NCBI GenBank assembly: GCA_014799845.1
Contig: JAAVHF010000047.1
Coordinates: 22,204 to 72,150, forward strand
DNA: 49,947 nucleotides
Source of the DNA: Oscillibacter sp.
GTDB lineage: Bacteria > Bacillota > Clostridia > Oscillospirales > Oscillospiraceae
Direction of reading: 5' to 3'
The notes below the pieces were generated by a model. That model ran no database searches and was not told the DNA's origin. It was given only the letters and a program-made list of their open reading frames with translations. This document shows, piece after piece, positions 23,877 through 39,426 of this stretch (position 1 is its first letter; each line of letters begins with the position of its first letter). The position numbers and the translations under genes are program-made.

Positions 23877-24535
23877 CCGTCATCGGCATCACCGGCCCCA
23901 CCGGGGCGGGGAAGACCACCGCGCTGGACGTGCTGGCGGAAATGGACTTTGAGATCGTAGACTGCGACGCGCTGTACTATCGGTTGCTGCGCACTGACGA
24001 ACACTTGCGCCAGGCCCTGCGGGAGGCCTTTGGCGAGGTGTTTCTGCCGGACGGGACCCTGGACCGCCGGAGGGTGGCAAAGCGGGTATTCGGCAATCAA
24101 AAGGAACTGGCAAAGTTAAATAACCTTGTGTTTCCCGCTGTGTCCGCAGCAGTGGAACAAAAAATTCAGAAATGTTCACAAAAAGGACTTGCTATTGATG
24201 CCATCAATCTGGTAGAATCCGGTATGGGGCGGTTGTGCGATGTCACGGTAGCCGTGACGGCGCCGTCTGCCATCCGTTTGAAGCGCATCATGACCAGAGA
24301 TGCCCTGACCGGGGAGCAGGCCAGGGCCAGGATCGAGGCTCAGAAGCCGGCGGACTGGTATCGGGAAAACTGCGCCTTCCTTCTGGAGAATCAGGAGGCG
24401 GACAGGGGGGCTTTTGAGGTGATGGCGCGCACATTTTTCAAAAATCTGATGGAAACGATGAATGAAGGAGAGAAGTGCAATGGAAGCGAAGGAATGGAAA
24501 GAGAAGCTCCTCATGGAGAAAAAGAACGGCTATGA
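23873..24535 (+). CDS. coaE: Dephospho-CoA kinase
   Basis: Phosphorylates dephospho-CoA at the 3' ribose hydroxyl, the last step of coenzyme A synthesis. The P-loop GPTGAGKTT is at residues 8-16, followed by DFEIVDCDALYYRLL (usual V-I-D-A-D), DGTLDRRRVAKRVF, and RIMTRDALTGEQARARI with the R-x-x-x-R adenine lid. The GTG start at 23873 overlaps the previous stop and is supported by GGAGGAGGCGGA just upstream. The protein ends with an about 20-residue polar tail (EGEKCNGSEGMEREAPHGEK) read through the start of the aminopeptidase gene, so the two frames overlap by 56 bases. The kinase domain itself ends before the overlap. Confidence 0.93.
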   Translation: MTVIGITGPTGAGKTTALDVLAEMDFEIVDCDALYYRLLRTDEHLRQALREAFGEVFLPDGTLDRRRVAKRVFGNQKELAKLNNLVFPAVSAAVEQKIQKCSQKGLAIDAINLVESGMGRLCDVTVAVTAPSAIRLKRIMTRDALTGEQARARIEAQKPADWYRENCAFLLENQEADRGAFEVMARTFFKNLMETMNEGEKCNGSEGMEREAPHGEKERL

Positions 24536-25865
24536 CCGGATGCCCGCCGGTGAGCGGGAGGCTATGAACAGCTACTGCCAGGGCTACAAGGCGTTTCTGG
24601 ATGCCGGCAAGACCGAGCGTGAATGCGTCCGTGAGGGCATCCGTCTGGCTGAGGAGAAGGGCTTCCGGGCCTATGAGCGGGGCATGGAGCTGAAAAGCGG
24701 GGACAAGGTGTACCTGAATAACCGGGGCAAGATGCTGCTGCTGGCGGTCATTGGCCAGAAGAGTCTGGCCGAAGGCGCGCAGATCGCCGCCGCCCATATC
24801 GACAGCCCCCGTCTGGACCTCAAGCCCAGCCCCCTCTATGAGGACAGCGAGCTGGCTTACCTCAAGACCCATTATTACGGCGGCATCCGGAAGTACCAGT
24901 GGGTGACTATCCCTCTGGAGATCCACGGCGTGGTGGCGCTGAAGGACGGTAAGACCGTCAACGTCGTCATCGGCGAGGGAAGCGAGCCCAAGCTGGTCAT
25001 CAACGACCTGCTGCCCCATCTGGGCGCGGAGCAGAGCAAGAAGACCCTGGCCGAGGGCATTGCCGGTGAGCAGCTGAACATCATGGCGGGCAGCGAACCC
25101 ATGGAAGGCGAGGAAAAGGACCGGGTCAAGCTGGCGGTCATGAAGGTGCTGTATGAGAAGTACGGCTTCACGGAGGAGGATTTCATCTCCGCCGAACTGG
25201 AAGCGGTCCCGGCAGCTAAGGCCACCGACATCGGTCTGGATGCCAGTCTGATCGGCGCTTACGGCCACGATGACCGTGTGTGCGGCTACGCCGCCCTGAG
25301 GGCGCTGCTGGATTTGGAAGAGGTTCCCGGCAAGACCGCGGTCTGCGTGCTGGCGGACAAGGAGGAGATCGGTTCCGTGGGCGTGTCCGGCATGTTGACG
25401 CATGCCTTTGACACCTTCATGGAGGACCTGTGCGACAGCCAGAATGTGCCGGTGCGGGCATGCTTGGAGAAGAGCTTCTGCCTCTCCGCCGATGTGACGG
25501 CGGCCTATGATCCCAACTTTGGCGACGTATATGAGAAGCGGAATTCCTCCTTTGTGAATTACGGCATCGGTCTGTGCAAGTATACCGGCAGCCGGGGCAA
25601 GGGCGGCGCGTCCGACGCCTCCGCAGAGCTGGTGGCCTATGTCCGCCGGATCTTTGACGAGAACGGCGTCATCTGGCAGATGGCGGAGCTGGGCAAGGTG
25701 GACGCCGGCGGCGGCGGCACCGTGGCGGCTTATATGGCCAACCGGAACATCGACACCCTGGACGCCGGCGTGCCGGTGCTGGCCATGCACGCTCCCTTTG
25801 AGGTGGTTGCCAAGCTGGACTGCTACATGACCTATAAGGGCATGACGGCGGTATATATGAACTGA
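24480..25865 (+). CDS. apeB: M18 family aminopeptidase
   Basis: A cytoplasmic zinc aminopeptidase of the aspartyl-aminopeptidase family, 461 residues. Metal-ligand segments are AAHIDSPRLDLKP (His), GAYGHDDRVCGY (bridging Asp), ADKEEIGSVG (catalytic Glu pair), LSADVTAAYD (Asp) and AMHAPFEVVAK (His near the C-terminus). The start at 24480 has AAGGAGAG about 8 bases upstream and lies inside the end of coaE. The gene is followed at once by a strong terminator, so it closes the prfA-coaE transcript. The symbol apeB is used by family analogy. Confidence 0.93.
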   Translation: MEAKEWKEKLLMEKKNGYDRMPAGEREAMNSYCQGYKAFLDAGKTERECVREGIRLAEEKGFRAYERGMELKSGDKVYLNNRGKMLLLAVIGQKSLAEGAQIAAAHIDSPRLDLKPSPLYEDSELAYLKTHYYGGIRKYQWVTIPLEIHGVVALKDGKTVNVVIGEGSEPKLVINDLLPHLGAEQSKKTLAEGIAGEQLNIMAGSEPMEGEEKDRVKLAVMKVLYEKYGFTEEDFISAELEAVPAAKATDIGLDASLIGAYGHDDRVCGYAALRALLDLEEVPGKTAVCVLADKEEIGSVGVSGMLTHAFDTFMEDLCDSQNVPVRACLEKSFCLSADVTAAYDPNFGDVYEKRNSSFVNYGIGLCKYTGSRGKGGASDASAELVAYVRRIFDENGVIWQMAELGKVDAGGGGTVAAYMANRNIDTLDAGVPVLAMHAPFEVVAKLDCYMTYKGMTAVYMN

Positions 25866-25877
25866 TAGACAGGATAA

Positions 25878-25915
25878 CCGCCCCTTCCTTTTGCGGGAAG
25901 GGGCGGCTTTTTGTG
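25878..25915 (+). terminator. Intrinsic terminator after the aminopeptidase gene
   Basis: Perfect 11-bp stem CCGCCCCTTCC (25878-25888) and GGAAGGGGCGG (25896-25906) with a 7-base loop, followed by CTTTTTG. It begins 13 bases after the stop codon. Confidence 0.92.
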
Positions 25916-25971
25916 TATAGGGGGCGTACCGTGAATAAACTGTAAATATATAGAAAAATTTGCATAATCCC

Positions 25972-26000
25972 TTGAATATTCAGCCGGAATATGGTATACT
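25972..26000 (+). promoter_or_regulatory. Sigma-A-like promoter of the OLE-type RNA
   Basis: TTGAAT at 25972-25977 and TATACT at 25995-26000 with an exact 17-base spacer, directly after an AT-rich stretch (25931-25970) that could act as an UP element. The start would be near 26007, where the structured RNA begins. No gene start is within 700 bases, which shows the promoter serves a noncoding transcript first. Confidence 0.75.
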
Positions 26001-26006
26001 GGCCCT

Positions 26007-26660
26007 GCTAAACGACGGTGCAGTATCCTAGTCAGATCTGCCGCTTCCGAAGAAGGGCCTAAAAATCCTTTAAAGGGCATAGCTGTGAAACCCCTGGTGC
26101 CTGCTGCAAACGCCCAGTTTGGGGTGGGTGCTGGGCGGAAAGCGCGGACTCCTCGCGCTTGCGGATTCAGGGCGTTCCCCAATGGCATGGGGAAGCCGAC
26201 CCTGCTTTCGTGGAGACCTGAACTTGTGCATGGGCGTACTCCCTTTGCGGTACTTCGACCCATGTACGACTCAGGGTAGAAACCTGTATTGCGGTGCTAC
26301 CCGGCCTTGAGCCGTGAACGCTGTGTGCAGATGTAGCCTGCCTTGCGTGGGCTTGGCGGATTGGAGACCAACCCAGCTTTCTCCCCGGCCAGGGAGGGGC
26401 TGCTATTGCTCCATGAAACCCCGCCTGCAAAAGAGGCTAAGAAGCGGTTTGACTGTGGTGGAAAACACCTAGGCTGTCGTCACTGGGCAGATGGGGGATT
26501 GCAGTGCGGACTAAGTGGCAGTCGGGCAGCGCGGTGGGCAACGCCGCGCCGGGGCGCTGAAAGGGAAACCGCCCGATCGGCAACGAGGGGTGAGCCCCGG
26601 GGAAATCCAGCCCGTACCTAAGCCGTAAGATTTACTTCATCTGCTGCCGGCGTTTAGCTT
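26007..26660 (+). ncRNA. ole: OLE-type large structured noncoding RNA
   Basis: About 650 bases without a gene, between a good promoter and a terminator. The region is full of compact helices: CGCCCAG/CTGGGCG (26113-26139 area), AGCGCG/CGCGCT (26140-26160 area), TTCCCCA-ATGGCA-TGGGGAA at 26175-26194, a long hairpin with CATGGG/CCCATG and an inner GTAC/GTAC (about 26228-26264), GGTAG/CTACC (26275-26302 area) and GCGCGG/CCGCGC (26529-26552 area). Size and context fit OLE RNA, a roughly 600-nt RNA of Bacilli and Clostridia that binds the membrane protein OapA and sits before oapA, dxs, tlyA, argR and recN, the same genes found downstream here. OLE complexes have been linked to cold, ethanol and magnesium stress. 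The assignment uses context, length and structure; I could not run a covariance search. Confidence 0.78.
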
Positions 26661-26680
26661 TTTGCGACAGCGGAATGTGC

Positions 26681-26715
26681 GCCGTCCCGCCCGCAGGGCG
26701 GGGCGGCGGTTTTAT
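26681..26715 (+). terminator. Intrinsic terminator after the OLE-type RNA
   Basis: A 12-bp stem, GCCGTCCCGCCC (26681-26692) with GGGCGGGGCGGC (26696-26707), one G-T pair and a 3-base loop, followed by GGTTTTATC. It separates the RNA from the lipoprotein gene, although read-through is likely since the T-run is short. Confidence 0.75.
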
Positions 26716-26744
26716 CTGTATATGCGGGCAGGAGTGATCACGCT

Positions 26745-29084
26745 GTGGAACAGATGAAGAAAATACGGTCTTTACTGCTGGCGGTGGTCTTGCTGTTGGG
26801 GCTCTCGGCCTGCGGACAGAAGGAGGAGACCGGACAGGAACTGGTTTATCTGCCGGAAGATATTGCCTTTACCACGGCCCTGAACCGTGTGTCCAGCGCC
26901 TGCATTTCCGGCGACTCCCTGTATCTGCTGGGGGCTGCCAGAGAGCCTATGGGCGAGGCGGGCCACAGGGACCGCTGGGCCCTTTTCCGGGTGCCGCTGG
27001 AGGGCGGCGCAGGGGAGGAAATCCCATTTGAGGCGCCCTTTCCCAAAGGAAATGATGACGAGATGTACCACGCTTCTATCCGCGCCGGAGCGGACGGCGC
27101 GGTCTGGGTACTGGACGACACGGTTTTCGGCGGAAGAGATTGCGTTTATATCCTCCGAAAACTGAACCGGGACGGGGAGGAGTTGTACCGCTTCGACTCC
27201 CGGTCCGGCGAGGGGGACCTGTTGTCCCGGATGGGCTGGTCGGTCTGGAGTCTGAGCGACATCGCGACGGATGCCAGCGGCGATCTGTTCGCGCGGTCCG
27301 AAGGCGTTGTGGCGGCGCTGGATGGGGAGGGCAATATCCTCTATACCCTGAAGGTTGACATCAGGGATGAACTGTATCTGAACGCTATGTACCGTTTTGT
27401 CGCTCTGGGAGACGGCAGATTGGGACTTCTGGCTTCCCGGAAGAATGAGGATGGCGCTGAGGAGATTCTGCTGCAAACCATCGACAAGGAGGCCCGGGAT
27501 TGGGGCGAGGCATATCATCTCCCGGCCAACGTGCAGAGAGTGTGGCCGGGAGATGAAAACGCCCTGTTTTACTATCAGGATAAGAAATCCCTGTATGCCT
27601 GGCACGGGGAAGAAGCAGAGGCCCGGTGGGTGCTGGACTGGATGGACGCCCGGCTGGACAGAGATGACGTGGGGTCTCTGGCCTTTCTGGCCGACGGCCG
27701 GATCGGCGTGGTGTGCTGTTCTTACAACACATTGGCGGCGGAGGTCCGTTATGTGCTGCTGTCGGAGACGGACGCCTCCCAGGCCCCGCCCAGGAAGGAA
27801 CTGCTCCTGGGATGCATTTCCCTTGATTCCGATGACCGGGCGCTGATCAACCAGTTCAACAGTACCAGTCCCGACTGCTATGTCACAGTAGAGGACTATG
27901 CCGTCTATCAGGATGATACAGGATACCTTGACTGGAATGCCAGCCGGACCAAAATGGCGACGAAGATCGCTGCCGGAGAGATCCCGGATCTTCTGGACAT
28001 GGACGGCCTTCCCCTCCGGCAGTTCGGGAGCAAAGGAATATTGGAGGACCTGTGGCCCTATATCGACAACGACCCGGAGTTAAGCCGGGAGGATCTGATG
28101 CTGCGGCCCCTGGAGGCCGCCTCCCAGGACGGGAAATTGTATCTGCTCAGCGACACCTTCTGGATCGAGACGCTGGTAGGCCGGAAGAGCATCGTAGGGG
28201 ACCGGATGGGCTGGACCTATGGGGATTTTCTGGAGGCATGGGCAGCCATGCCTCCGGACAGCGTGCTGGAAGATACCAGAACGGGAATGCTGCAAACGCT
28301 GCTTCAAGTGAACGCGGACGCTTTTCTGGACTGGGATGCCGGAATATGTCATTTTGACGGCGCGGAATTTCGCGCCATGCTGGAATTTTGCGGCCGTCTC
28401 CCCGCGGAGAGGTCGGATCGGGACATATGGACGGCGATGTTTGACGGGGAAGCCCTGGAAATGAATACCTGGCTGGGGTCCTTCGACGGGATCATGTTTG
28501 ACAGCGTTTCTTTCCATAAAGGCTTATGCGGCGGCGAGATGACATATATTGGCTATCCGACGGAATCAGGACAGGTGGGGAGCGCCTTTGGGCTGGGCCG
28601 TGAGCTGGCTATGACGGCCGCCTGCGCGGATAAGGACGGTGCATGGTCCTTTCTGCGGACCCTGCTGCTGCCCAAGGGGAGGGAAGTCGATTATGAGAAT
28701 TTCCTTGACAAGGCTGATTTTGCCATCAATAAAGAGGACTTCCGAAGGATGCTGGAGCAGGCCATGACGCCGGCTTATGCGGTGGATGGAGATGGGAATT
28801 ATCGTCTGGACGCGGAAGGAAACCGGATCGAGGAACCAAAGAACGGCATCAGTTTCGGTGGGTTTCACTATTACCGGTGCGACATTTACGCCACCACCCA
28901 GGCGGACTATGAACAGTTCATGGCGCTGTACGAAGCCACAGAGGTGCTGAACGACTATAACAGCGCCCTGACGGATATCATTACGGAGATTGCCGGGGCT
29001 TACTTCGCCGGAGACAGGTCGCTGGACGAAACGGCTTCGCTGATCCAGAACCGGGCAAATTTGTATATCACTGAACAGAAATAA
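26745..29084 (+). CDS. Large lipoprotein: propeller-like N-terminus plus extracellular solute-binding domain
   Basis: 779 residues. The N-terminus is a lipoprotein signal: IRSLLLAVVLLLGLSACGQ, with lipobox L-S-A-C. Residues about 30-340 have repeated short strands with W/L-x-x-x-D-G-x-x-G-V wording (AGADGAVWVLDD, DASGDLFARSEG, ALGDGRLGLLAS, FLADGRIGVVCC), like a beta-propeller. From about residue 345 a family 1 solute-binding domain begins: LINQFNSTSPDCYVTVEDY, then TKMATKIAAGEIPDLLDMDG and YGDFLEAWAAMP. Family members feed ABC importers, but no permease is adjacent, so it may be an orphan sensor or binding protein. GTG at 26745 is preferred (GGCAGGAG 10 bases upstream); an ATG lies at 26754. 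It stands between OLE and oapA, an unusual place. Confidence 0.85.
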   Translation: MEQMKKIRSLLLAVVLLLGLSACGQKEETGQELVYLPEDIAFTTALNRVSSACISGDSLYLLGAAREPMGEAGHRDRWALFRVPLEGGAGEEIPFEAPFPKGNDDEMYHASIRAGADGAVWVLDDTVFGGRDCVYILRKLNRDGEELYRFDSRSGEGDLLSRMGWSVWSLSDIATDASGDLFARSEGVVAALDGEGNILYTLKVDIRDELYLNAMYRFVALGDGRLGLLASRKNEDGAEEILLQTIDKEARDWGEAYHLPANVQRVWPGDENALFYYQDKKSLYAWHGEEAEARWVLDWMDARLDRDDVGSLAFLADGRIGVVCCSYNTLAAEVRYVLLSETDASQAPPRKELLLGCISLDSDDRALINQFNSTSPDCYVTVEDYAVYQDDTGYLDWNASRTKMATKIAAGEIPDLLDMDGLPLRQFGSKGILEDLWPYIDNDPELSREDLMLRPLEAASQDGKLYLLSDTFWIETLVGRKSIVGDRMGWTYGDFLEAWAAMPPDSVLEDTRTGMLQTLLQVNADAFLDWDAGICHFDGAEFRAMLEFCGRLPAERSDRDIWTAMFDGEALEMNTWLGSFDGIMFDSVSFHKGLCGGEMTYIGYPTESGQVGSAFGLGRELAMTAACADKDGAWSFLRTLLLPKGREVDYENFLDKADFAINKEDFRRMLEQAMTPAYAVDGDGNYRLDAEGNRIEEPKNGISFGGFHYYRCDIYATTQADYEQFMALYEATEVLNDYNSALTDIITEIAGAYFAGDRSLDETASLIQNRANLYITEQK

Positions 29085-29118
29085 TAAAATAGAAAAGTGA
29101 AAGCGAGGAGAGCATTTC

Positions 29119-29706
29119 TTGGGCGCAGGCGACAATAAGGACACAAAAAAGAAACCGAAAAAGAAGGGAAAGCAGGAGAAATCCCCGGGCGTGTGGGCGG
29201 TGCAGGTGTTTTTCATCGCGATGGCGCTGTCCGCCCTGCTGAGCCTGGCCTCCGACCGGGCGCTGAACGGGGCGGGACTGGCGGTGGCCTTTGGGGTGCT
29301 GCTGGCGTTTATCCTGCTGGGCATTTTCTTCGACGTCATAGGCACGGCGGTGACGGCGGCGGATGAAAAGCCCTTTCACTCCATGGCCGCCCGCAAGACG
29401 CCGGGCGCGAAGGAGGCTATCTCCCTGATCCGGAGGGCCGATAAGGTATCCAGCTTCTGCAACGACGTAGTGGGAGACATCTGCGGCATTATCGCCGGTT
29501 CCACGGTGGCGGTGATCGTGGTGCAGTTCCAGGCGGCCTTCGGCGTGCCGGGGACGGTGATCGCTCTGCTGGTGACGGCGCTGACCTCCGGTCTGACCAT
29601 CGGAGGCAAGGCCCTGGGCAAAAGCTTTGCCATCGCCAGGAGTACGGCGGTGCTCCAGCTGGTGGGACGGTTCTTGCATCTGTTCAGCCGCAAAAAGAAG
29701 AGGTGA
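29119..29706 (+). CDS. oapA: OLE-associated membrane protein OapA-like
   Basis: 195 residues. The first about 25 are very lysine-rich (DTKKKPKKKGKQEK), suited to RNA contact. Hydrophobic helices follow: VWAVQVFFIAMALSALLSLA, GLAVAFGVLLAFILLGIFFD, CGIIAGSTVAVIVVQFQAAF and VIALLVTALTSGLTIGG. Between helices 2 and 3 are conserved-looking polar stretches (TAADEKPFHSMAARKTPGAKEA and ADKVSSFCNDVVGDICGI). In OLE-bearing bacteria OapA binds OLE RNA at the membrane and its gene precedes dxs; here dxs overlaps its stop by 4 bases. The start is a TTG at 29119 with GAGGAG 8 bases upstream. The assignment uses topology, N-terminal charge and gene order. Confidence 0.82.
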   Translation: MGAGDNKDTKKKPKKKGKQEKSPGVWAVQVFFIAMALSALLSLASDRALNGAGLAVAFGVLLAFILLGIFFDVIGTAVTAADEKPFHSMAARKTPGAKEAISLIRRADKVSSFCNDVVGDICGIIAGSTVAVIVVQFQAAFGVPGTVIALLVTALTSGLTIGGKALGKSFAIARSTAVLQLVGRFLHLFSRKKKR

Positions 29707-31553
29707 ACCCTGTTTTGATTTTAGAGCATATTTCCTCCCCGGCGGACGTGAAACAGCTGGACGGCGGATCGCTGAAACAGCTGTGTGCAGAGCTGCGGGA
29801 ATTTCTGGTGGAGAGCGTTTCCCGCACGGGGGGGCATCTGGCCTCCAATCTGGGAGCCGTTGAACTGACGGTGGCCCTCCACCGGGTCTACGATACGGAA
29901 AAGGACCGGCTGGTGTTCGACGTGGGCCACCAGTGCTATGTCCACAAGGCCCTCACCGGACGGCGGGAGCTGTTCGGCACCCTGCGGCAGCTGGACGGGC
30001 TGGCGGGATTCCCCAAGCCGGAGGAGAGCGTCCACGACGCCTTTGTGGCGGGCCACGCCTCCAACTCGGTTTCCGTGGCGCTGGGCATGGCCCGGGCCCG
30101 AACCCTGCGGGGCGAGGACCGCGCCATAGCGGCCCTCATCGGAGACGGGGCGCTGACCGGCGGTCTGGCCTACGAGGGCCTCAACGACGCGGGGGCATCC
30201 GGGGAGCCGATGGTGGTGATCCTCAATGACAACGGCATGTCCATTGATCCCAACGTGGGCGGCGTAGCCACCCATCTCAGCCACCTGCGCCTGCGGCCGG
30301 GGTACTACCGGTTCAAGAAGGGCTACCGGGCCGTCATGGAGCATGTGCCCGGCGGGCGGAAGCTGTACCAATTCAACCACCGCGTAAAGAGCGGCATCAA
30401 GCGGGCCATTTATCCCTGTTCCATGTTTGAGGACATGGGCTTTACCTACCTGGGGCCTGTGGACGGCCACAATGTGGAGCAGCTCTGCACCACTTTGGCC
30501 TGGGCGAAGGAGATGAACTGTCCCGTATTGCTCCATGTGCGCACGGTAAAGGGCAAGGGCTACGAGCCTGCCGAGCTCCGGCCGGAGCGTAGCCACGGGG
30601 TATCGCCTTTTGACCCGGCGAAAGGGCCGGAGCAGGAGCGGAAGGTGGACTTTTCCTATGTCCTGGGCCACGAGCTGGTGGAGCTGGCGGGGCAGGACAA
30701 GAGAATCTGCGCCGTCACCGCCGCCATGGCGGAGGGGACGGGGCTCCAGGAATTTGCCTCTGCCTGGCCCAAGCGCTTTTTTGACGTAGGCATTGCCGAG
30801 GGCCACGCGGTGGCCATGGCGGCGGGGATGGCGAAACAGGGGATGGTCCCGGTGTTTGCGGTGTACTCCACCTTTTTGCAGCGGGGCTTCGATATGCTGC
30901 TCCATGATGTGGCGCTCCAGCAGCTTCACGTGGTGCTTGCCGTGGACCGGGCGGGGCTGGTAGGCTCCGACGGTCCCACCCATCACGGCTGTCAGGACGT
31001 GGGCTATCTGACCCAGATTCCCGGCATGACGGTGTTGTGCCCCGCCTGTTTCGGAGAGTTGAGGGCTATGCTGCGTTCCGCCATAGATATGGAGGGGCCG
31101 GTTGCCGTCCGGTACCCCCGGGGCGGCGAGGGGCGGCAGTACCCGGAGTGGAACGGGGAGAGTGCGTCGGTCCTCCGACAGGGGACGGACGTGACGCTGG
31201 TTTCCTACGGGACGCTGACAGATGAGAGCCTTGCCGCGGCGGAGCTGCTGGCGGAGAAGAGCGTCAGCGCGGAAGTAATCAAACTCAACCGCATCGCCCC
31301 TCTGGATGCCGGCGCGGTGGTGGAATCTGTCAAACGAACCGGACGGCTGCTGGTGCTGGAGGACTGCAACGAAAACGGCTCTGTCGGGCAGCAGCTGGCA
31401 GCGTCCCTGGCCCAATCGGGAATTGCGCCCAGAGCGCTGATTTTGCGGAATTTGAAGAACGTGTTCGCCCCCCAGGGGACCGTCTCCCAGCTGCGGCAGC
31501 TGCTGGGGCTGGACGCCCGCGGAGTGGTGGAACAGGTACAGGAAATATTATGA
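29703..31553 (+). CDS. dxs: 1-deoxy-D-xylulose-5-phosphate synthase
   Basis: First enzyme of the methylerythritol phosphate route to isoprenoids; condenses pyruvate and glyceraldehyde-3-phosphate using thiamine diphosphate. 616 residues from the GTG at 29703. Thiamine-binding segment GDGALTGGLAYEGLNDAG with VVILNDNGMSID; substrate and dimer segments FDVGHQCYVHKALTGR, HASNSVSVALGMARA, and in the transketolase-like part VLAVDRAGLVGSDGPTHHG. The GTG overlaps the oapA stop, but the TTG at 29715 gives a start (ILEHISSPADVKQL) closer to the family and has AGAGGTGA 8 bases upstream, so it may be the real one. The gene order oapA-dxs is typical of OLE loci. Confidence 0.95.
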   Translation: MNPVLILEHISSPADVKQLDGGSLKQLCAELREFLVESVSRTGGHLASNLGAVELTVALHRVYDTEKDRLVFDVGHQCYVHKALTGRRELFGTLRQLDGLAGFPKPEESVHDAFVAGHASNSVSVALGMARARTLRGEDRAIAALIGDGALTGGLAYEGLNDAGASGEPMVVILNDNGMSIDPNVGGVATHLSHLRLRPGYYRFKKGYRAVMEHVPGGRKLYQFNHRVKSGIKRAIYPCSMFEDMGFTYLGPVDGHNVEQLCTTLAWAKEMNCPVLLHVRTVKGKGYEPAELRPERSHGVSPFDPAKGPEQERKVDFSYVLGHELVELAGQDKRICAVTAAMAEGTGLQEFASAWPKRFFDVGIAEGHAVAMAAGMAKQGMVPVFAVYSTFLQRGFDMLLHDVALQQLHVVLAVDRAGLVGSDGPTHHGCQDVGYLTQIPGMTVLCPACFGELRAMLRSAIDMEGPVAVRYPRGGEGRQYPEWNGESASVLRQGTDVTLVSYGTLTDESLAAAELLAEKSVSAEVIKLNRIAPLDAGAVVESVKRTGRLLVLEDCNENGSVGQQLAASLAQSGIAPRALILRNLKNVFAPQGTVSQLRQLLGLDARGVVEQVQEIL

Positions 31554-32074
31554 TCTATTATACAGTCGGTCCTCTTGTGATCCGCACCATGACGGAAGCG
31601 GATGCTCACACCATCGCGGAGGGCGAGCGCGCCCAGGGCTACGGCACCACGCCTGACCGGTTTCTCTCCCGCCTGCGGGAGCAGGAGGAGGGCAAATGTA
31701 TTGCCATTGCGGCGGAATGGTCCGGACAGGCGGCGGGCTATATCCATGTGTATCCCGATTCCCAGTGGGGGCCTCTTGGAGGCCGGGGGTATCCGGAGAT
31801 CGTAGATTTTGGCGTGCTGGAGAAGTTCCGGCGGCAGGGCGTCGGCAGCAGACTGATGGATGCCGCGGAGGCCGTGGCGGCGGAGTGTGCTCCGGAGGTC
31901 TATCTGGCGGTTGGACTTCACAAGTACTACGGCCATGCCCAGCGGATGTACATCAAGAGGGGGTATCTTCCCGATGGCAGCGGCGTGTGGTACGGCGACA
32001 AACCCTGTGAGCCTTACGGCACATACCGGAATGATGATGAATTGAATCTGTATCTGGTAAAAAAACTGAGATGA
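31550..32074 (+). CDS. GNAT family N-acetyltransferase
   Basis: 174 residues. It begins with the LVIRTMTEADAHTIAEGE opening common to GNATs, and the acetyl-CoA loop EKFRRQGVGSRLMDAAEAVA has the R-R-x-G-V-G-S pattern. The later helix RMYIKRGYLPDGSGVWYGD resembles aminoglycoside acetyltransferase-like or phosphinothricin-like GNATs, but the acceptor is unknown. Overlaps the dxs stop by 4 bases (ATGA), so it is coupled to dxs, although it has no evident isoprenoid role. Confidence 0.88.
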   Translation: MIYYTVGPLVIRTMTEADAHTIAEGERAQGYGTTPDRFLSRLREQEEGKCIAIAAEWSGQAAGYIHVYPDSQWGPLGGRGYPEIVDFGVLEKFRRQGVGSRLMDAAEAVAAECAPEVYLAVGLHKYYGHAQRMYIKRGYLPDGSGVWYGDKPCEPYGTYRNDDELNLYLVKKLR

Positions 32075-32088
32075 CAGGGGGAGCGAAG

Positions 32089-32634
32089 ATGAACAAAAAA
32101 GACATGCGCCGCAGCGACTGGTGCCGTATCCTCCGGCGGGAGTATGTCAGCCGTGACTGCCAGATGTACGGGATCAGAGGGAAGGAGAGCCTGCTGGTGA
32201 TCCGGGAGGTGACCGGACCGCTGGTTGTCCATGATCCGGAGGCTGTGCTGATTGCGGAGAAGGACTATGCCTGGGTGCAGATCGCGTTGGAGGGATTGCC
32301 CTTCTGGCTGACCGCCATGTACGATGCACAGGGGCAGCTGATCCAGATCTATTTCGATATTACCGGAGGAAACCGGTTCAATGATCCGGAAAATCCATGG
32401 TTTGCGGATATGTACCTGGACATTGTGGTGAACAGCCGGGGAGAGCTGTACGTTCTGGACCGGGACGAGCTGGACGCGGCCTTGACAGAGGGTGCGATCA
32501 CGAAAGACGAATGGGACAAGGCAAACGCGGCCTGCGCGCGCTTATACGCCTATTTGCAGGAAAACCGGGAATCTGTGACAGAGCTGTGCGGACGGGTATA
32601 CCGGGAGCTGGGAGAGCAGCTTATTTCCACATAA
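32089..32634 (+). CDS. DUF402 family protein
   Basis: 181 residues. The family core is the acidic pair of strands IYFDITGGNRFNDPENPWF and ADMYLDIVVNSRGELYVLD, ended by RDELDAALTEGAITKDEWDK. DUF402 members include nucleoside tri-/diphosphatases with metal ligands in the F-D-I-x and D-x-Y-L-D-I-V segments, both kept here. A role in hydrolysing nucleoside di- or triphosphates is plausible by family. I chose the ATG at 32089 because GGGGAGCGAAG stands directly before it; an ATG at 32071 would leave little spacing from the previous gene. Confidence 0.82.
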   Translation: MNKKDMRRSDWCRILRREYVSRDCQMYGIRGKESLLVIREVTGPLVVHDPEAVLIAEKDYAWVQIALEGLPFWLTAMYDAQGQLIQIYFDITGGNRFNDPENPWFADMYLDIVVNSRGELYVLDRDELDAALTEGAITKDEWDKANAACARLYAYLQENRESVTELCGRVYRELGEQLIST

Positions 32635-32655
32635 ACGGCGAGGAGGAGGAAAGAA

Positions 32656-33186
32656 ATGATAGAGATTCGAGAGATTGACGCGGCCCATAAGGCGGATATC
32701 AACATTCCCAACGAGCCGTTCCCCCTGTTCGGGAGAATGGTCCCGTCCTATGTGGATGAAAAGTGGGGACATACGGAGGCGCTTTTCGATGAGAAGGATG
32801 TGTCGGAAATGTGCTTTCCGGATGAAAATTACGACTATGAGGCCATGAAGCAGGACCATGTATTTCTGGGGGCCTACGACGGGGAGCAATGCGTCGGACT
32901 GGCGATTTTTCGGGATGCGGTCTTCTATTACATGTACCTCTACGATTTGAAGGTAGCAAGAGCCTACCGGGATCAGGGGGTGGGGCACATGCTGATTGAG
33001 AAGGCGAAGGAGATTGCCGGGACCCGGGGCTACAATGGCATCTACACCCAGGGGCAGGACAATAATCTGGCGGCCTGCCGGTTTTATCTCAAGGCGGGCT
33101 TCCACATCGGCGGGTTGGACACCAACGTCTACAAGGGTACCAGTCAGGAGGGTAAATCGGATATCCTGTTTTACATGGATTTTTAG
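32656..33186 (+). CDS. GNAT family N-acetyltransferase
   Basis: 176 residues. The acetyl-CoA motif reads DLKVARAYRDQGVGHMLIEKA (R-x-x-G-V-G) and the C-terminal part YTQGQDNNLAACRFYLKAGF is the usual N-x-x-A-x-x-F-Y-x-K-x-G-F ending. The middle has MYLYDL, matching streptothricin-acetyltransferase-like GNATs (Sat family wording E/D-x-x-G-I-Y-T-Q-G-Q-D-N-N). A streptothricin-type detoxifying role is possible but not shown. AGGAGGA precedes the start. Confidence 0.88.
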   Translation: MIEIREIDAAHKADINIPNEPFPLFGRMVPSYVDEKWGHTEALFDEKDVSEMCFPDENYDYEAMKQDHVFLGAYDGEQCVGLAIFRDAVFYYMYLYDLKVARAYRDQGVGHMLIEKAKEIAGTRGYNGIYTQGQDNNLAACRFYLKAGFHIGGLDTNVYKGTSQEGKSDILFYMDF

Positions 33187-33197
33187 GAGAAAGAGAA

Positions 33198-33962
33198 ATG
33201 TTATTGCATGAATTTGACCCGAACCCGGTGGCGGTCATCAATCCAAGTGACATCCATGCGCCTGTTGCGGACTGTCCCAAGGTGGCGGTGTCCTGCTTCG
33301 AGCGGAAGACTTTCGGGCGGATGGTGGAACGGCTGGGGGCGGAACCTTTTGCACTGACCAAGTGTGCCAACATGGAGATCCCTGTCTTCCGGGCGGAGTA
33401 CAAAGGCATAGAGATCGCTCTGTACGAAGCGTATGTAGGCGCGGCGGGATGCGTGGGAATGCTGGAGGATCTGTTTGCGATTGGTGTGGAGAAGCTGGTG
33501 CTGTTTGGCACCTGCGGGGTGTTGGACCGGTCCATTAAGCATTGTGGTATCATTATTCCTACAGCTGCCTTGCGGGACGAGGGAACCAGTTTCCACTATG
33601 CCCCGCCCTCGGACGAGATTGAGGTCAACCCGAAATACCGGGAAGATTTTATTGAGATATTGGACCGCCATAAATGCGGCTATACCATGGGTAAGGTATG
33701 GACAACGGATGCTTTCTACCGGGAAACAGCGGAGAAAACTGCCCGGCGGAAGGCATCAGGATGTGTGTGCGTGGACATGGAGTGCTCAGCGGTAGCCGCG
33801 CTGGCGCAGTTCCGAGGGAAAGAGGTGTTCCACTTCTTCCACGCGGCGGATAACCTGGACGGAGAAGCATGGGATTCCAGGGGGCTCAGCCAGGACAGTA
33901 ACATCACTGGAAGGGATAAGGCCGCGCTGCTGGCGTTGGAGCTGGCGGCAAGAATTGCGTAA
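33198..33962 (+). CDS. Nucleoside phosphorylase (uridine/purine phosphorylase family)
   Basis: 254 residues of the PNP_UDP_1 family, which split nucleosides with phosphate. Phosphate and ribose regions: EAYVGAAGCVGMLEDLFAIG, KLVLFGTCGVLDRSI and IIIPTAALRDEGTSFHY (the R-D-E-G-T/S-S motif). Nucleoside-binding signature CVDMECSAVAALAQF (usual D-M-E-x-A-A) and FFHAADNLDGEAW near the end. Specificity between uridine and purine nucleosides is unclear; the wording is closest to uridine-phosphorylase-like proteins. It is 11 bases after the GNAT gene. Confidence 0.87.
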   Translation: MLLHEFDPNPVAVINPSDIHAPVADCPKVAVSCFERKTFGRMVERLGAEPFALTKCANMEIPVFRAEYKGIEIALYEAYVGAAGCVGMLEDLFAIGVEKLVLFGTCGVLDRSIKHCGIIIPTAALRDEGTSFHYAPPSDEIEVNPKYREDFIEILDRHKCGYTMGKVWTTDAFYRETAEKTARRKASGCVCVDMECSAVAALAQFRGKEVFHFFHAADNLDGEAWDSRGLSQDSNITGRDKAALLALELAARIA

Positions 33963-33975
33963 GAGGGAAATTGTT

Positions 33976-34611
33976 ATGGGATACAGGATTATTGATCTGG
34001 CGTCATACAAGAGAAAAAGCCATTTCGCATATTTCAGTAGTTTTGCCTACCCCTACGTGGGGACCACGGCAAACGTGGACATCACGGCACTGCTGAAAAA
34101 AGTAAAGGACGAGAAGCTGCCGTTTTTCCTTGCGGCCTGCTATTGCGCCTCGCGGGCGGCCAACAGCGTGCCGGAACTCCGGCAGAGGATCCGGGAGGGC
34201 GGGATCGTTGAATTTGAACGGTGCCGTGTTTCCCATACCGTGGCGCTGGAGGACGGAACCTACTGCTACTGTACGCTGGAGGATATCCCTGACTTTCATG
34301 ACTATCTGGCAGAGGGCAGGCAGGCGCAGGAGATGGCGAAGCGGCAGGCGAGCATTGAGGAGGACCCGGAAGAGACGCTGGAAAAGCTCTTTGTTTCCTC
34401 GATCCCCTGGCTGAGCTATACATCGCTGGTCCAGCCCGTTCCCAGTCCGGCGGACAGCAATCCACGGATCACCTTTGGGAAATATTTCTCCCAGGAGGGG
34501 AAGGTCCTGCTGCCTGTGTCCCTGCTGTGCAATCACGCGCTGGTGGACGGCATCCATATCGCGGCATTTTATCAGGCCATGGACCGGGAGATAGCGGAGG
34601 CGGTGCGATGA
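33976..34611 (+). CDS. Chloramphenicol acetyltransferase-like (CatA-type fold) protein
   Basis: 211 residues, the size of a type A CAT monomer. The catalytic motif H-x-x-x-D-G is present as CNHALVDGIHIAAFY near the C-terminus, and the N-terminal segment SHFAYFSSFAYPYVGTTANVD resembles the start of CATs (usual form R-x-x-x-F/Y-x-x-F). Typical CATs have more extended N-terminal loops, and this protein could act on another amine or alcohol acceptor. Resistance is not implied. The ATG at 33976 is chosen because AGAGGGAAA precedes it; the upstream in-frame start at 33955 would overlap the phosphorylase gene. Its stop overlaps the tlyA start by 4 bases. Confidence 0.8.
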   Translation: MGYRIIDLASYKRKSHFAYFSSFAYPYVGTTANVDITALLKKVKDEKLPFFLAACYCASRAANSVPELRQRIREGGIVEFERCRVSHTVALEDGTYCYCTLEDIPDFHDYLAEGRQAQEMAKRQASIEEDPEETLEKLFVSSIPWLSYTSLVQPVPSPADSNPRITFGKYFSQEGKVLLPVSLLCNHALVDGIHIAAFYQAMDREIAEAVR

Positions 34612-35417
34612 GTAAGAAAATCAGGCTGGACGTCCTCCTGACAGAAAAGAACCTCCTGGAGAGCCGTCAGAAAGCCCAGGCCACGATCATGAGCGGTCTG
34701 GTATACGTGGGCGGCCAGCGTGTGGACAAGCCCGGGACGGCAGTGGACCCGGAAGCGGAAATTGAGATCCGGGGAAGCACCCTGCGCTACGTCAGCCGGG
34801 GCGGCCTGAAGCTGGAGAAGGCCATGGCCGTGTGGCCCATCGAATTAGCGGGCAAAGTCTGTATGGATATCGGCGCGTCCACCGGCGGCTTCACCGACTG
34901 CATGCTCCAAAACGGCGCAGGCAAGGTCTACGCGGTGGACGTAGGCTACGGCCAGCTGGCCTGGAGCCTGCGCAGCGATGAGCGGGTCGTGTGTCTGGAG
35001 CGGACCAACGCCCGGTATCTGGACCATGAGATCATCCCGGAGGAGCCGGACTTTTCCAGCGTGGACGTCAGCTTTATTTCCTTAAAGCTGATTCTCCCCG
35101 CCATTGCCAACGTACTGAAGGACGGGGGCGAGGTGGTCTGTCTGGTGAAGCCCCAGTTCGAGGCGGGCAAGGAGAAGGTAGGCAAAAAGGGCGTAGTCCG
35201 TGACCCCGCCGTCCACCGGGAGGTGCTGGAGTGTTTTCTGGAACACGCCGGAGAGAGCGGCTTCACCGTGCTGGACCTGAACTATTCCCCCGTCCGGGGG
35301 CCGGAAGGGAATATTGAGTACCTGGGCTGGCTGCGGAAGGCGGCGTGGGAGGAGAAGTCGTTTGACCTGGCCGCGCTGGTGGAGGCGTCCCATGAGGAGC
35401 TGGAGCGTAAAAGCTGA
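34608..35417 (+). CDS. tlyA: TlyA family rRNA 2'-O-methyltransferase
   Basis: TlyA methylates ribose hydroxyls in rRNA and its name (hemolysin) is historical. 269 residues. The N-terminal S4 RNA-binding domain spans about 1-60 (LDVLLTEKNLLESRQKAQAT). The FtsJ-like fold starts with the SAM-binding motif DIGASTGGFTDCML at 87-100, then KVYAVDVGYGQLAWSLR and the catalytic-type Lys in LVKPQFEAGKEKVGKKG (K-D-K-E tetrad region). The gene is a fixed member of the dxs-tlyA-nadK-argR-recN series. AGCGGAGGCGG stands before the ATG at 34608. Confidence 0.94.
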   Translation: MSKKIRLDVLLTEKNLLESRQKAQATIMSGLVYVGGQRVDKPGTAVDPEAEIEIRGSTLRYVSRGGLKLEKAMAVWPIELAGKVCMDIGASTGGFTDCMLQNGAGKVYAVDVGYGQLAWSLRSDERVVCLERTNARYLDHEIIPEEPDFSSVDVSFISLKLILPAIANVLKDGGEVVCLVKPQFEAGKEKVGKKGVVRDPAVHREVLECFLEHAGESGFTVLDLNYSPVRGPEGNIEYLGWLRKAAWEEKSFDLAALVEASHEELERKS

Positions 35418-36235: not shown

Positions 36236-36274
36236 ATTTTTATTGGTTATAGGAACGACACGGAGGTGCGCATG

Positions 36275-37150
36275 ATGAAGCGCGTAATATTATGCCCCAA
36301 CCCCTACCGGGACAAGGGACTTGCTGCGGCCAGGGAGGCGGACGCCATCCTGCGCAGCGCGGGACTGACGACGGTCTACTGCCTTCCTTTCAAACCGGAG
36401 GGCGGCGACGGACAGTTTGGCGTACCCCTGCGTCCCCTCCAGCAGGAGCTGCGCAGCAGCGAACTGGTGGTAGCCTTCGGCGGGGACGGTACAATCCTGC
36501 ACCTGGCACGTGCGGCCTCTATGCGGGGTGTGCCGGTGCTTGGGGTGAATCTGGGCAGTTTGGGGTTCATGTCCGACCTGGAGCTGAGCGAGCTTGGACT
36601 GCTGAAAAATCTGGCGAATGGACGTTACCGCCGGGAAAAGCGGATGATGCTGGACGTATCCGTCCTGCGGGACGGACGGACAGTGTATACCGGCAGCGCC
36701 CTGAATGACGCGGTGGTCACCAAAGGCGCGATGGCGCGGGTGGTGCGGTTGCAGATCAATACAGGGGAGGACCAGCTGGGGATTTTCTCCGGGGATGGGG
36801 TGGTGGTGGCCACGCCCACCGGTTCCACGGGCTACTCTCTGTCGGCGGGGGGACCCATTGTGGAACCTACGGCGCAGAACTTCGTCATCAGTCCCATCTG
36901 CGCCCACTCGGTCTTTTCCAAGTCCTTCGTGCTTTCCGCCGCGGGGACGGTGACCATCACGCCGGCGGAGCAGAACCGGAAACAGGTCTATCTGTCGGTG
37001 GACGGCGGCAAAGCGTTTGCCCTGCGGCAGGGGGATAAGGTACGCATCTGCCGGTCCCGGTATGAGACAGAGCTGCTGCGATTAACAGATAAGAGCATTT
37101 ACGAAATTTTACGGACGAAAATGACAGGAGGCATTGGACATGAAAAATGA
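36275..37150 (+). CDS. nadK: NAD kinase
   Basis: Phosphorylates NAD to NADP using ATP or polyphosphate. 291 residues. Catalytic G-G-D-G-T at residues 69-73 in LVVAFGGDGTILHLARAA; NLGSLGFMSDLE follows (usual N-x-G-x-L-G-F-L). The segment LNDAVVTKGAMARVV has the N-D/E-x-x-x-x-x-G motif, and TPTGSTGYSLSAGGPIV is the conserved substrate loop. Three nearby codons could start the gene; GGAGG at 36262-36266 favours the ATG at 36275 (8-base spacing) over 36272. Its stop overlaps the argR start. Confidence 0.95.
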   Translation: MKRVILCPNPYRDKGLAAAREADAILRSAGLTTVYCLPFKPEGGDGQFGVPLRPLQQELRSSELVVAFGGDGTILHLARAASMRGVPVLGVNLGSLGFMSDLELSELGLLKNLANGRYRREKRMMLDVSVLRDGRTVYTGSALNDAVVTKGAMARVVRLQINTGEDQLGIFSGDGVVVATPTGSTGYSLSAGGPIVEPTAQNFVISPICAHSVFSKSFVLSAAGTVTITPAEQNRKQVYLSVDGGKAFALRQGDKVRICRSRYETELLRLTDKSIYEILRTKMTGGIGHEK

Positions 37151-37592
37151 TCGTCAGAGGAGAATTTTAGAGATCGTGGAGCGTGAGCCCATCGACACAC
37201 AGGAACTGCTCCAGCAGCGTCTGCTGGAGCAGGGGATCAGCTGCACACAGGCGACCATTTCCCGGGATATCAAGCAGCTGCACCTGATTAAGGAGCCGGT
37301 GGGGCAGGGGCGGTACCGGTATACGGTGTCCAGCCAGCGCAATCGTTTGAATGTAGCGGATAAGCTGCGCAACATCTTCCGGGAAAGTATTGTCAGCATT
37401 GATTATGCGCAGAACATAGTGGTCATCAAAACCATGGCGGGGTTGGCCAACGCGGCCGCCGCCGCGCTGGATGGGATGAATGTTCCCTATATGGTAGGAA
37501 CTTTGGCTGGTGATGATACGGCGTTTCTTGTGATGAGGGATACGGAATCCGCCCGCGGATTCTGCGAAGAGATACATGAGATGATAAAATGA
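37140..37592 (+). CDS. argR: Arginine repressor ArgR/AhrC
   Basis: Hexameric arginine-responsive transcription regulator. 150 residues. N-terminal winged helix about 1-66: RRILEIVEREPIDTQELLQQ and CTQATISRDIKQLHLIK (S-R-D recognition helix). C-terminal arginine-binding and oligomerisation domain: NIVVIKTMAGLANAAAAALD and VGTLAGDDTAFLVMRD (the G-D-D motif). AGGAGG lies 9 bases before the ATG at 37140. In this lineage the regulator commonly stands before recN, as here; arginine genes themselves are not in the window. Confidence 0.95.
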   Translation: MKNDRQRRILEIVEREPIDTQELLQQRLLEQGISCTQATISRDIKQLHLIKEPVGQGRYRYTVSSQRNRLNVADKLRNIFRESIVSIDYAQNIVVIKTMAGLANAAAAALDGMNVPYMVGTLAGDDTAFLVMRDTESARGFCEEIHEMIK

Positions 37593-37749: not shown

Positions 37750-39426
37750 ATGCTACAATTGCTGCATATTGAAAACATCGCGGTCATAGAAGAGGCGGAT
37801 ATCACCTTTGATGAGGGCTTCAACGCTCTTACCGGCGAGACCGGCGCTGGTAAGAGCATCGTCATCGACGCCATGGGCGCCGTGCTGGGCCAGCGGACCA
37901 GCAGGGATCTGATCCGTACCGGAGCGGCCAAGGCGTTCGTCAGCGCCGTATTCACCGGTGTGCCGCACTTGTCGGCACTGGACGAGTGCGGCGCTGAGGC
38001 TGAGGATGGCGAGCTCCTGCTGCAAAGGGAAATCTACGCCGATGGCAAGAACGCCTGCCGCGTGGGCGGCAGGCCGGTAACCGTGGCCCAGCTGCGGAAG
38101 ATCGGCGCGGCTCTGCTGAACATCCACGGCCAACACGATGGCCAGCAGCTTCTGGACGAGGAGCAGCACGGGGCCTATCTGGACAGCTTCGGCCGTGTGG
38201 AGAAGGAGCTGGAGGGCTATACCGCCTGCTACGAGGCCATGGAGGGGACCCGAAAAAAGCTGAAAGCCCTGCAAATGGACGAGGCCGAAAAGGAACGGCG
38301 GATGGACAGCCTCAAGTTCCAGATCGATGAACTGGAGCGGGCGCAGCTGAAGCCCGGGGAGGAGGAGGCCCTTCTCCAGAGGCGGAATCTGCTGCGCAAC
38401 AGCGAAAAATTCATGTCCGCCATTCAGGGAGCCGTGTGGAGCCTCACCGGCGGAGACGACGGCGGCGGCGCGGTGTCTGAGCTGCGGGAAGCCGCCGGCG
38501 CTGTCTCCGGTGCAAAAAATCTGGACGAGCAGTTCGCCCAGCTTCATGAGCGGCTTGAAAATCTCTATTCCGAGGCCTACGATGTGGCAGAGACCCTGCG
38601 GGATTTGCAGGATTCCTTTGATTTCAGTCCCCATGAGCTGGACGAACTGGAGAGCCGGGCGGACCAGCTGTACCGTCTGAAAAAGAAGTACGGTCCCACC
38701 GTGGAGGACATGATCGAGTATCTGGAGCAGCGCAAAGAAGAGCTGGATCAGATTGCCTTTGCCTCCGACACCGCCGCCAGACTGGAAAAGCAGCTGGAAA
38801 AGGAACGCAAACAGGTGATGAAAGCCGCCGGCGTATTGTCCGATGCCCGGAAGTCGGCGGCAAAGCAGCTGGAAGCCCGGATTCAGGACGAGCTCCGCCA
38901 GTTGGATATGCCCAAGGTGCGTTTTGCCATCTGCTTTGAGGAGAAGGAACCGGATGCCTCCGGCATTGATGTGGTGCGCTTCCTCATGTCCGCAAATGTA
39001 GGGGAGGAACTGCGGCCCATCAACAAGGTAGCCTCCGGCGGCGAGCTGGCGAGGATCATGCTGGCGCTGAAAAACGTGCTGGCAGAAAATGAGCTGATTG
39101 GGACCCTGGTTTTCGATGAGGTGGACACCGGCGTCAGCGGCCGCGCGGCGCAGAAGGTCGCGGCCAAGCTGGCCCAGGTCAGCCGCCGGAAGCAGGTGCT
39201 GTGCGTCACTCATCTGCCTCAGCTGGCGGCCATGGCGGACACCCACTTCTCCGTGGAGAAAGGGGAGAGCAAAGGGCGGACCTATACGAAGGTCCTGCGT
39301 CTGGACCGGGAGCGGCGGAAGCAGGAACTGGCCCGCCTCACCGGCGGCGAACATCTGACGGAAGCCATGCTGGCGGGAGCCGGGGAACTGCTGGACGCGG
39401 CGGAAGCGTACAAAAAGAGTATTTAA
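37750..39426 (+). CDS. recN: DNA repair ATPase RecN
   Basis: SMC-like protein acting early at double-strand breaks. 558 residues, full length. Walker A GETGAGKS at residues 29-36; the segment LLNIHGQHDGQQLLDEEQH is the RecN-specific Q-H-D motif. A long coiled coil (about 155-345) with charged heptads follows. The C-terminal head has signature VASGGELARIMLALK, Walker B TLVFDEVDTGVSGRAA and H-loop VLCVTHLPQLAAMAD. It is the last conserved member of the dxs-recN series; the next gene is 18 bases downstream. Confidence 0.96.
   Translation: MLQLLHIENIAVIEEADITFDEGFNALTGETGAGKSIVIDAMGAVLGQRTSRDLIRTGAAKAFVSAVFTGVPHLSALDECGAEAEDGELLLQREIYADGKNACRVGGRPVTVAQLRKIGAALLNIHGQHDGQQLLDEEQHGAYLDSFGRVEKELEGYTACYEAMEGTRKKLKALQMDEAEKERRMDSLKFQIDELERAQLKPGEEEALLQRRNLLRNSEKFMSAIQGAVWSLTGGDDGGGAVSELREAAGAVSGAKNLDEQFAQLHERLENLYSEAYDVAETLRDLQDSFDFSPHELDELESRADQLYRLKKKYGPTVEDMIEYLEQRKEELDQIAFASDTAARLEKQLEKERKQVMKAAGVLSDARKSAAKQLEARIQDELRQLDMPKVRFAICFEEKEPDASGIDVVRFLMSANVGEELRPINKVASGGELARIMLALKNVLAENELIGTLVFDEVDTGVSGRAAQKVAAKLAQVSRRKQVLCVTHLPQLAAMADTHFSVEKGESKGRTYTKVLRLDRERRKQELARLTGGEHLTEAMLAGAGELLDAAEAYKKSI

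Follow-up and report, generated by a model that had tools for sequence, protein, structure and literature searches.

A lipoprotein gene lies between the OLE RNA and oapA in members of a genus of gut Oscillospiraceae

In the stretch of DNA analysed here (the window), 49,947 nt of contig JAAVHF010000047.1 from an Oscillibacter sp. (genome G000 in our samples), a gene for a lipoprotein of 779 amino acids (aa) lies between the OLE RNA and oapA, which encodes a partner of this RNA. We propose that the OLE operon is intact, and that a clade within one genus of gut Oscillospiraceae probably took in passenger genes, including this one. The proposal builds on what can be observed directly, namely the gene order, the hairpin behind OLE, the spacing of OLE and oapA, and the distribution, divergence and scars of the inserted gene. 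The locus looks like a variant of the known OLE-oapA arrangement, and the gene like a passenger and not like an addition to the OLE machinery. The central features are as follows (ORF, open reading frame).

25972-26000, + strand: OLE promoter-like site TTGAAT-17-TATACT with TG before the -10 (sequence scan and conservation)
25999-26666, + strand: full-length OLE RNA (Rfam RF01071, 401.7 bits against a cut-off of 50, E 1.2e-114, model positions 1-616)
26680-26708, + strand: strong hairpin directly 3' of OLE, 13-bp GC stem and T-rich tail (terminator or processing hairpin)
26745-29084, + strand: lipoprotein gene, 779 aa (ORF; PF13416; profile match to solved sugar-binding proteins)
29119-29706, + strand: oapA (PF01595, 28.0 bits, just below the cut-off of 28.4; place; co-occurrence with OLE)
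29703-31553, + strand: dxs (TIGR00204, 676.4 bits)

The RF01071 match, the sole Rfam match of the whole window at gathering cut-offs, agrees within about ten bases with the OLE-type RNA that an earlier sequence-only reading had placed at 26007-26660. The same reading had recognised an OLE locus with an OapA-like gene at 29119 followed by dxs, tlyA, nadK, argR and recN, an order with which the model matches agree. In a genome search, the OapA-like frame with its neighbours reached 28.6 bits with PF01595, and a profile of the OapA-like protein (A1) matched the OLE-adjoining gene in each of the 41 genomes with OLE in the family sample described below; we name the ORF OapA because of its place and this profile result. 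Full-length OLE with downstream oapA, dxs, tlyA, nadK, argR and recN is shared with the OLE/oapA locus of Bacillota (RF01071; Halalkalibacterium halodurans is the model), the usual neighbours of which are described in PMC12265935 and PMC11332333. In contrast to that locus, the window has a 2.3-kb lipoprotein gene inside the OLE-oapA interval, a strong hairpin directly 3' of OLE and, between dxs and tlyA, five additional genes.

The spacing was compared in samples of 150 genomes of the family, 291 of the class and 25 of the window's genus, the last being draft assemblies with one genome per species. Rfam scans of more than 40 genomes used stricter filters, with which weak matches are lost. In the window, 2458 bp separate the OLE and oapA matches, oapA being the second gene downstream of OLE. 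OLE was found in 41 of the 150 family genomes, and a strong OapA match was found in the same 41 (weak matches near 19 bits in G031 and G035 were not counted); in all 41 the two share contig and strand, the median gap being 50 bp with the window counted in, and gaps above 1 kb are confined to G000 and G011. The class sample had OLE in 114 of its 291 genomes, and OapA was matched in every one of these. OLE and oapA shared contig and strand in 111 (median gap 71 bp, window included), oapA sat on another contig in the other three, and a gap above 1 kb was seen only in G000. In seven class genomes, OapA was matched strongly and OLE gave no match, and in two there were only weak OapA matches. The earlier statement that OLE normally stands close to oapA, and that the window is unusual, therefore holds.

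Named OapA loci gave the same picture. Among the best 80 of 208, OLE lies upstream in 77, the remaining three have less than 340 bp of upstream sequence, and a gap above 1 kb with a lipoprotein gene occurs in two, L138 and L141 (G006 and G010). Both belong to the window's genus, as does L143 (G004), Candidatus Pelethomonas intestinigallinarum, which makes Pelethomonas, or a close neighbour of it within Oscillospiraceae, the probable genus of the window; conservation of the lipoprotein gene at this place across several genera, which the sequence-only reading had envisaged, was thus not found. Longer gaps of other kinds were noted at L165 of the same 80 loci (741 bp) and in three class genomes of one genus, G352, G254 and G414 (858, 551 and 433 bp). 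At L048 (G037:C53), from the same order as the window, a 1150-aa ORF comes next after OLE; in this 10.7-kb contig, the part of that genome searched, oapA was detected by neither tblastn nor the OapA profile.

Within the genus, OLE is present in 22 of the 25 genomes, and 19 have OLE and oapA on one contig. Intact lipoprotein genes occupy the interval in five of these 19 (G000, G006, G010 with two, G011 and G017), scars in two (G008 and G018) and neither in 12. The G018 scar retains the last 24 lipoprotein residues in recognisable form, 79% identical to the window, and the interval also holds an inserted ORF that by eye resembles an acetyltransferase; the G008 scar is a 24-nt tail that agrees with G018 at 21 of 24 positions and with the window at 19. 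In G020, the OLE contig shares an overlap of exactly 55 nt with a contig on which two lipoprotein genes stand in tandem, with no link to the oapA side, and in G023 a similar ORF follows OLE and its hairpin and runs for 48 codons to the contig end. Contigs end in or beside OLE in G006, G008, G013, G020 and G024; presence or absence of the lipoprotein gene was not judged in G024. Besides the window, six species of the genus therefore have the gene or its start behind OLE, contrary to the suggestion that it might be absent from this place in all close relatives. In a tree built from the OapA, Dxs and TlyA proteins of 22 genomes (G001, G023 and G024 were left out), G000, G006, G008, G011, G017, G018 and G020 form one clade (100/100), and the position of G010 is not fixed.

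The site copies have diverged deeply. They are 35-47% identical to each other, except G011 and one G020 copy (G020b, 71%) and G017 and the other (G020a, 53%). OapA proteins of the lipoprotein-carrying genomes plus G008 and G018 are 67-88% identical, their Dxs proteins 76-90%, and five family members that group together elsewhere 57-72%. Matches to the lipoprotein family occur in 23 of the 25 genus genomes, with at least 23 in one genome among the matches listed, gene pieces being counted apart. Trees of 71 and of 32 long ORFs place seven of the eight site copies, both from G020 included, in one subfamily of nine rows, and the second G010 copy in another. The remaining two rows are dispersed relatives, L125 (G000:C12) and L234 (G023:C499), each of which stands behind an ORF pair that by eye resembles a sigma factor and an anti-sigma protein. 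A single conserved orthologue at the site is rejected, as most pairs are only 35-47% identical. The seven copies as one clade were mildly rejected (AU test, p 0.0134), for a group named after the first tree was seen. From these sequences, we infer that the divergence would be explained best if an ancient pair of tandem genes had been lost differentially and G010 had gained one or more further copies.

The N-terminus of the 779-aa protein carries what we take to be a signal peptide with a lipobox-like LSAC|G, and Cys23 is invariant across 17 aligned family members. SBP_bac_8 (PF13416) matches residues 394-644 with 28.7 bits (cut-off 27), and the C-terminal half of a profile of the 17 members matches carbohydrate-type solute-binding proteins, with CbpC (7x0o) at E 1.3e-21 over profile positions 410-781. 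The likeness to the carbohydrate-binding proteins of ABC importers (CbpC 7x0o, Lmo0181 5f7v, YesO 5z6b) thus lies, by profile, in the C-terminal half; unlike these, the window protein has a further N-terminal half, some 350 aa long, and no transporter genes among the neighbouring ORFs examined. ABC transporter genes were absent from the adjoining ORFs (M18 aminopeptidase and OLE on the 5' side, oapA and dxs on the 3' side), the rest of the genome not having been searched. For the N-terminal 350 aa or so, the search with the 17-member profile matched no solved structure by sequence, and no family was recognised; across the 17 members, the N-terminal half gave a sub-threshold PQQ_2 match in one and a sub-threshold Kelch_6 match in one. 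The earlier description of a propeller/solute-binding lipoprotein is hence upheld for the solute-binding half, and its propeller is unproven.

The OLE promoter-like site is kept in an alignment of 15 OLE loci of the genus, and also in the OLE-less genome G014. This conservation matters because a lone promoter-like match says little: the scan of 11.7 kb gave five sites of this kind, and shuffled sequences yield 4.0. The promoter scan found no + strand site from the OLE promoter to the lipoprotein start, and one within the lipoprotein gene, at 27928. The 106-nt stretch around the post-OLE hairpin folds at -50.9 kcal/mol against a shuffle mean of -36.4 (z -4.55), and about 30 nt separate the hairpin from the lipoprotein start codon. 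With a revised detector (a score of 13 or more, equalled or bettered by no more than 4 of 200 single-base shuffles), a hairpin 3' of OLE was found at 9/9 loci with the gene or a scar, 5/12 other loci of the genus and 3/15 outside it; G024, with 48 nt behind OLE, was left out. The first detector, which missed stems that swallow their T run, had given 8/9, 3/12 and 3/15. In H. halodurans, the 3' end of OLE undergoes processing, according to section 7 of PMC11332333, and Table 1 of PMC12265935 lists OLE as very abundant, fifth when rRNA and tRNA are set apart.

Upstream of the -35, several OLE loci of the genus have an AT-rich dyad like AATATGCAAAA-n-TTTTGCATATT, of which the window holds a degenerate copy at 25935-25971. 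The dyad is a candidate operator. A search of the 25 genomes for the exact pattern found it in two, at one place each and both before OLE, and thus gave no support for a wider regulon.

Taken together, these features suggest the following mode of expression. Transcription would start at the promoter before OLE, and the hairpin right behind OLE would end or protect most transcripts as OLE RNA; a minority read-through transcript would carry the lipoprotein gene, oapA and dxs in one presumably shared message. The lipoprotein would be exported and anchored by its lipid, would bind a carbohydrate-like ligand through its C-terminal domain, as its genomic paralogues may do, and would be no part of the OLE particle, acting independently of OLE.

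Neither OLE nor OapA gave a match in G014, a genome that is 98% complete. At L224 (G014:C11:2000-20000), the promoter region common to the 15 OLE loci of the genus stands directly before dxs, and neither profile searches nor tblastn revealed any remnant of OLE or oapA in the sequence upstream of dxs. We read this as the loss of OLE and its partner gene in G014, both at once, with retention of the OLE promoter; this placement before dxs supports a single promoter with read-through. At G014:C67:14371-16187 there are two neighbouring ORFs with a CNNM domain (491 and 469 aa), and six OLE genomes of the genus have one strong CNNM-domain match each, against two in G014. An opposite occurrence of OLE and MpfA is reported in the abstract of PMC11332333, and the G014 pair may bear on it.

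Beyond the central features, the locus comprises the following.

24462-25865: M18 aminopeptidase gene, upstream of OLE (PF02127, 263.6 bits)
25878-25906, + strand: terminator-like hairpin of the M18 aminopeptidase gene, 12-bp stem and T run
31550-34611, + strand: five genes between dxs and tlyA, namely GNAT, DUF402, GNAT, PNP_UDP_1 and a CAT-family acetyltransferase (Pfam), the last at 33955-34611 (PF00302, 105.7 bits)
34605-35417, + strand: tlyA (TIGR00478, 274.5 bits)
36266-37150, + strand: nadK (several NAD kinase models, best 198.9 bits, below their cut-offs)
37134-37592, + strand: argR (TIGR01529, 136.8 bits)
37750-39426, + strand: recN (TIGR00634, 550.4 bits)

The dxs-to-tlyA distance is 3.05 kb in the window and 1.9-3.2 kb in G006, G008, G011, G017 and G018. 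Elsewhere in the genus it is 5-196 bp at nine loci, whereas G013 and G015 have about 680 bp (G010, G019 and G020 were not among the measured loci). The operon is thus loosened as a whole, and the lipoprotein gene is one of several genes acquired in the clade.

We favour a passenger because the lipoprotein gene is limited at this place to one genus, its copies are divergent beside conserved OapA and Dxs, scars occur, and further genes have been inserted between dxs and tlyA. The neutral insertion that the sequence-only reading had offered fits these data better than its other suggestion, a surface sensor joined to OLE-OapA biology, which found no support. As a working accessory of the OLE-OapA complex, the lipoprotein would be an outside sensor or partner that signals through OapA or an outer OLE domain, and the constant position of its gene throughout a clade, with OLE on one side and oapA on the other, speaks for such a role; so does a cryo-EM-based argument in section 4 of PMC12265935, that one OLE domain may sit on the far side of the membrane. 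However, the site copies are deeply diverged beside the conserved OapA and Dxs, G008 and G018 lost the lipoprotein and kept OLE and oapA, 12 species of the genus lack it and possess both OLE and oapA, and other genera lack it at this place. In addition, the OLE scores of carriers (400-407 bits, complete matches) lie inside the range of the genus (377-416 bits, complete matches), and related copies stand elsewhere, two of them behind the putative sigma/anti-sigma pair. We consider an accessory role unlikely. Some points weigh against our own proposal of a passenger expressed by read-through. All seven members of the 100/100 clade have the gene or a scar behind OLE, and the gene may therefore be kept for a reason; the lipoprotein ORF is intact, with coding-like base composition (GC content at third codon positions 0.71, compared with 0.81-0.83 in its neighbours); the hairpin is not particular to carriers, given the five other loci of the genus that have one; and a weak promoter inside OLE may exist.

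The site might instead serve to express surface lipoproteins, which would be swapped behind the OLE promoter and would vary surface or substrate between species independently of OLE function. Differing family members at one place, two subfamilies in G010, tandem copies in G010 and G020 and the abundance of OLE given in the table cited above are in keeping with this idea, which we nevertheless regard as unlikely: seven of the eight site copies fall into one nine-row subfamily, the cross-species pairs at 53% and 71% fit an old tandem pair with differential loss equally well, and among the single genomes per species no exchange was seen. A bolder combination, in which the OLE operon became an expression site for surface lipoproteins (the OLE promoter and a leaky hairpin supplying OapA and a changing set of outside binding proteins) and one lipoprotein now acts as the outer partner of a membrane-spanning OLE particle, seems very unlikely to us. 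Contigs misjoined at the conserved OLE sequence could be suspected, since the assemblies are drafts and several contigs break in or beside OLE. However, OLE, lipoprotein gene and oapA share one contig in G000, G010, G011 and G017, the scars of G008 and G018 are at the same place, and the insert is flanked by OapA and Dxs proteins closest to those of the same genus; with four contigs of the whole order and two scars, we reject an assembly artefact as scarcely credible.

In a literature search on OLE RNA and lipoproteins, no such insert was reported in the titles or abstract openings of the papers listed. The locus shows that 2 to 5 kb can be inserted between OLE and oapA, otherwise a close pair, and G014 offers natural evidence that both disappear together and that the OLE promoter serves the operon. 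For research on OLE, the locus also suggests caution, in that not every neighbour of ole is a partner.

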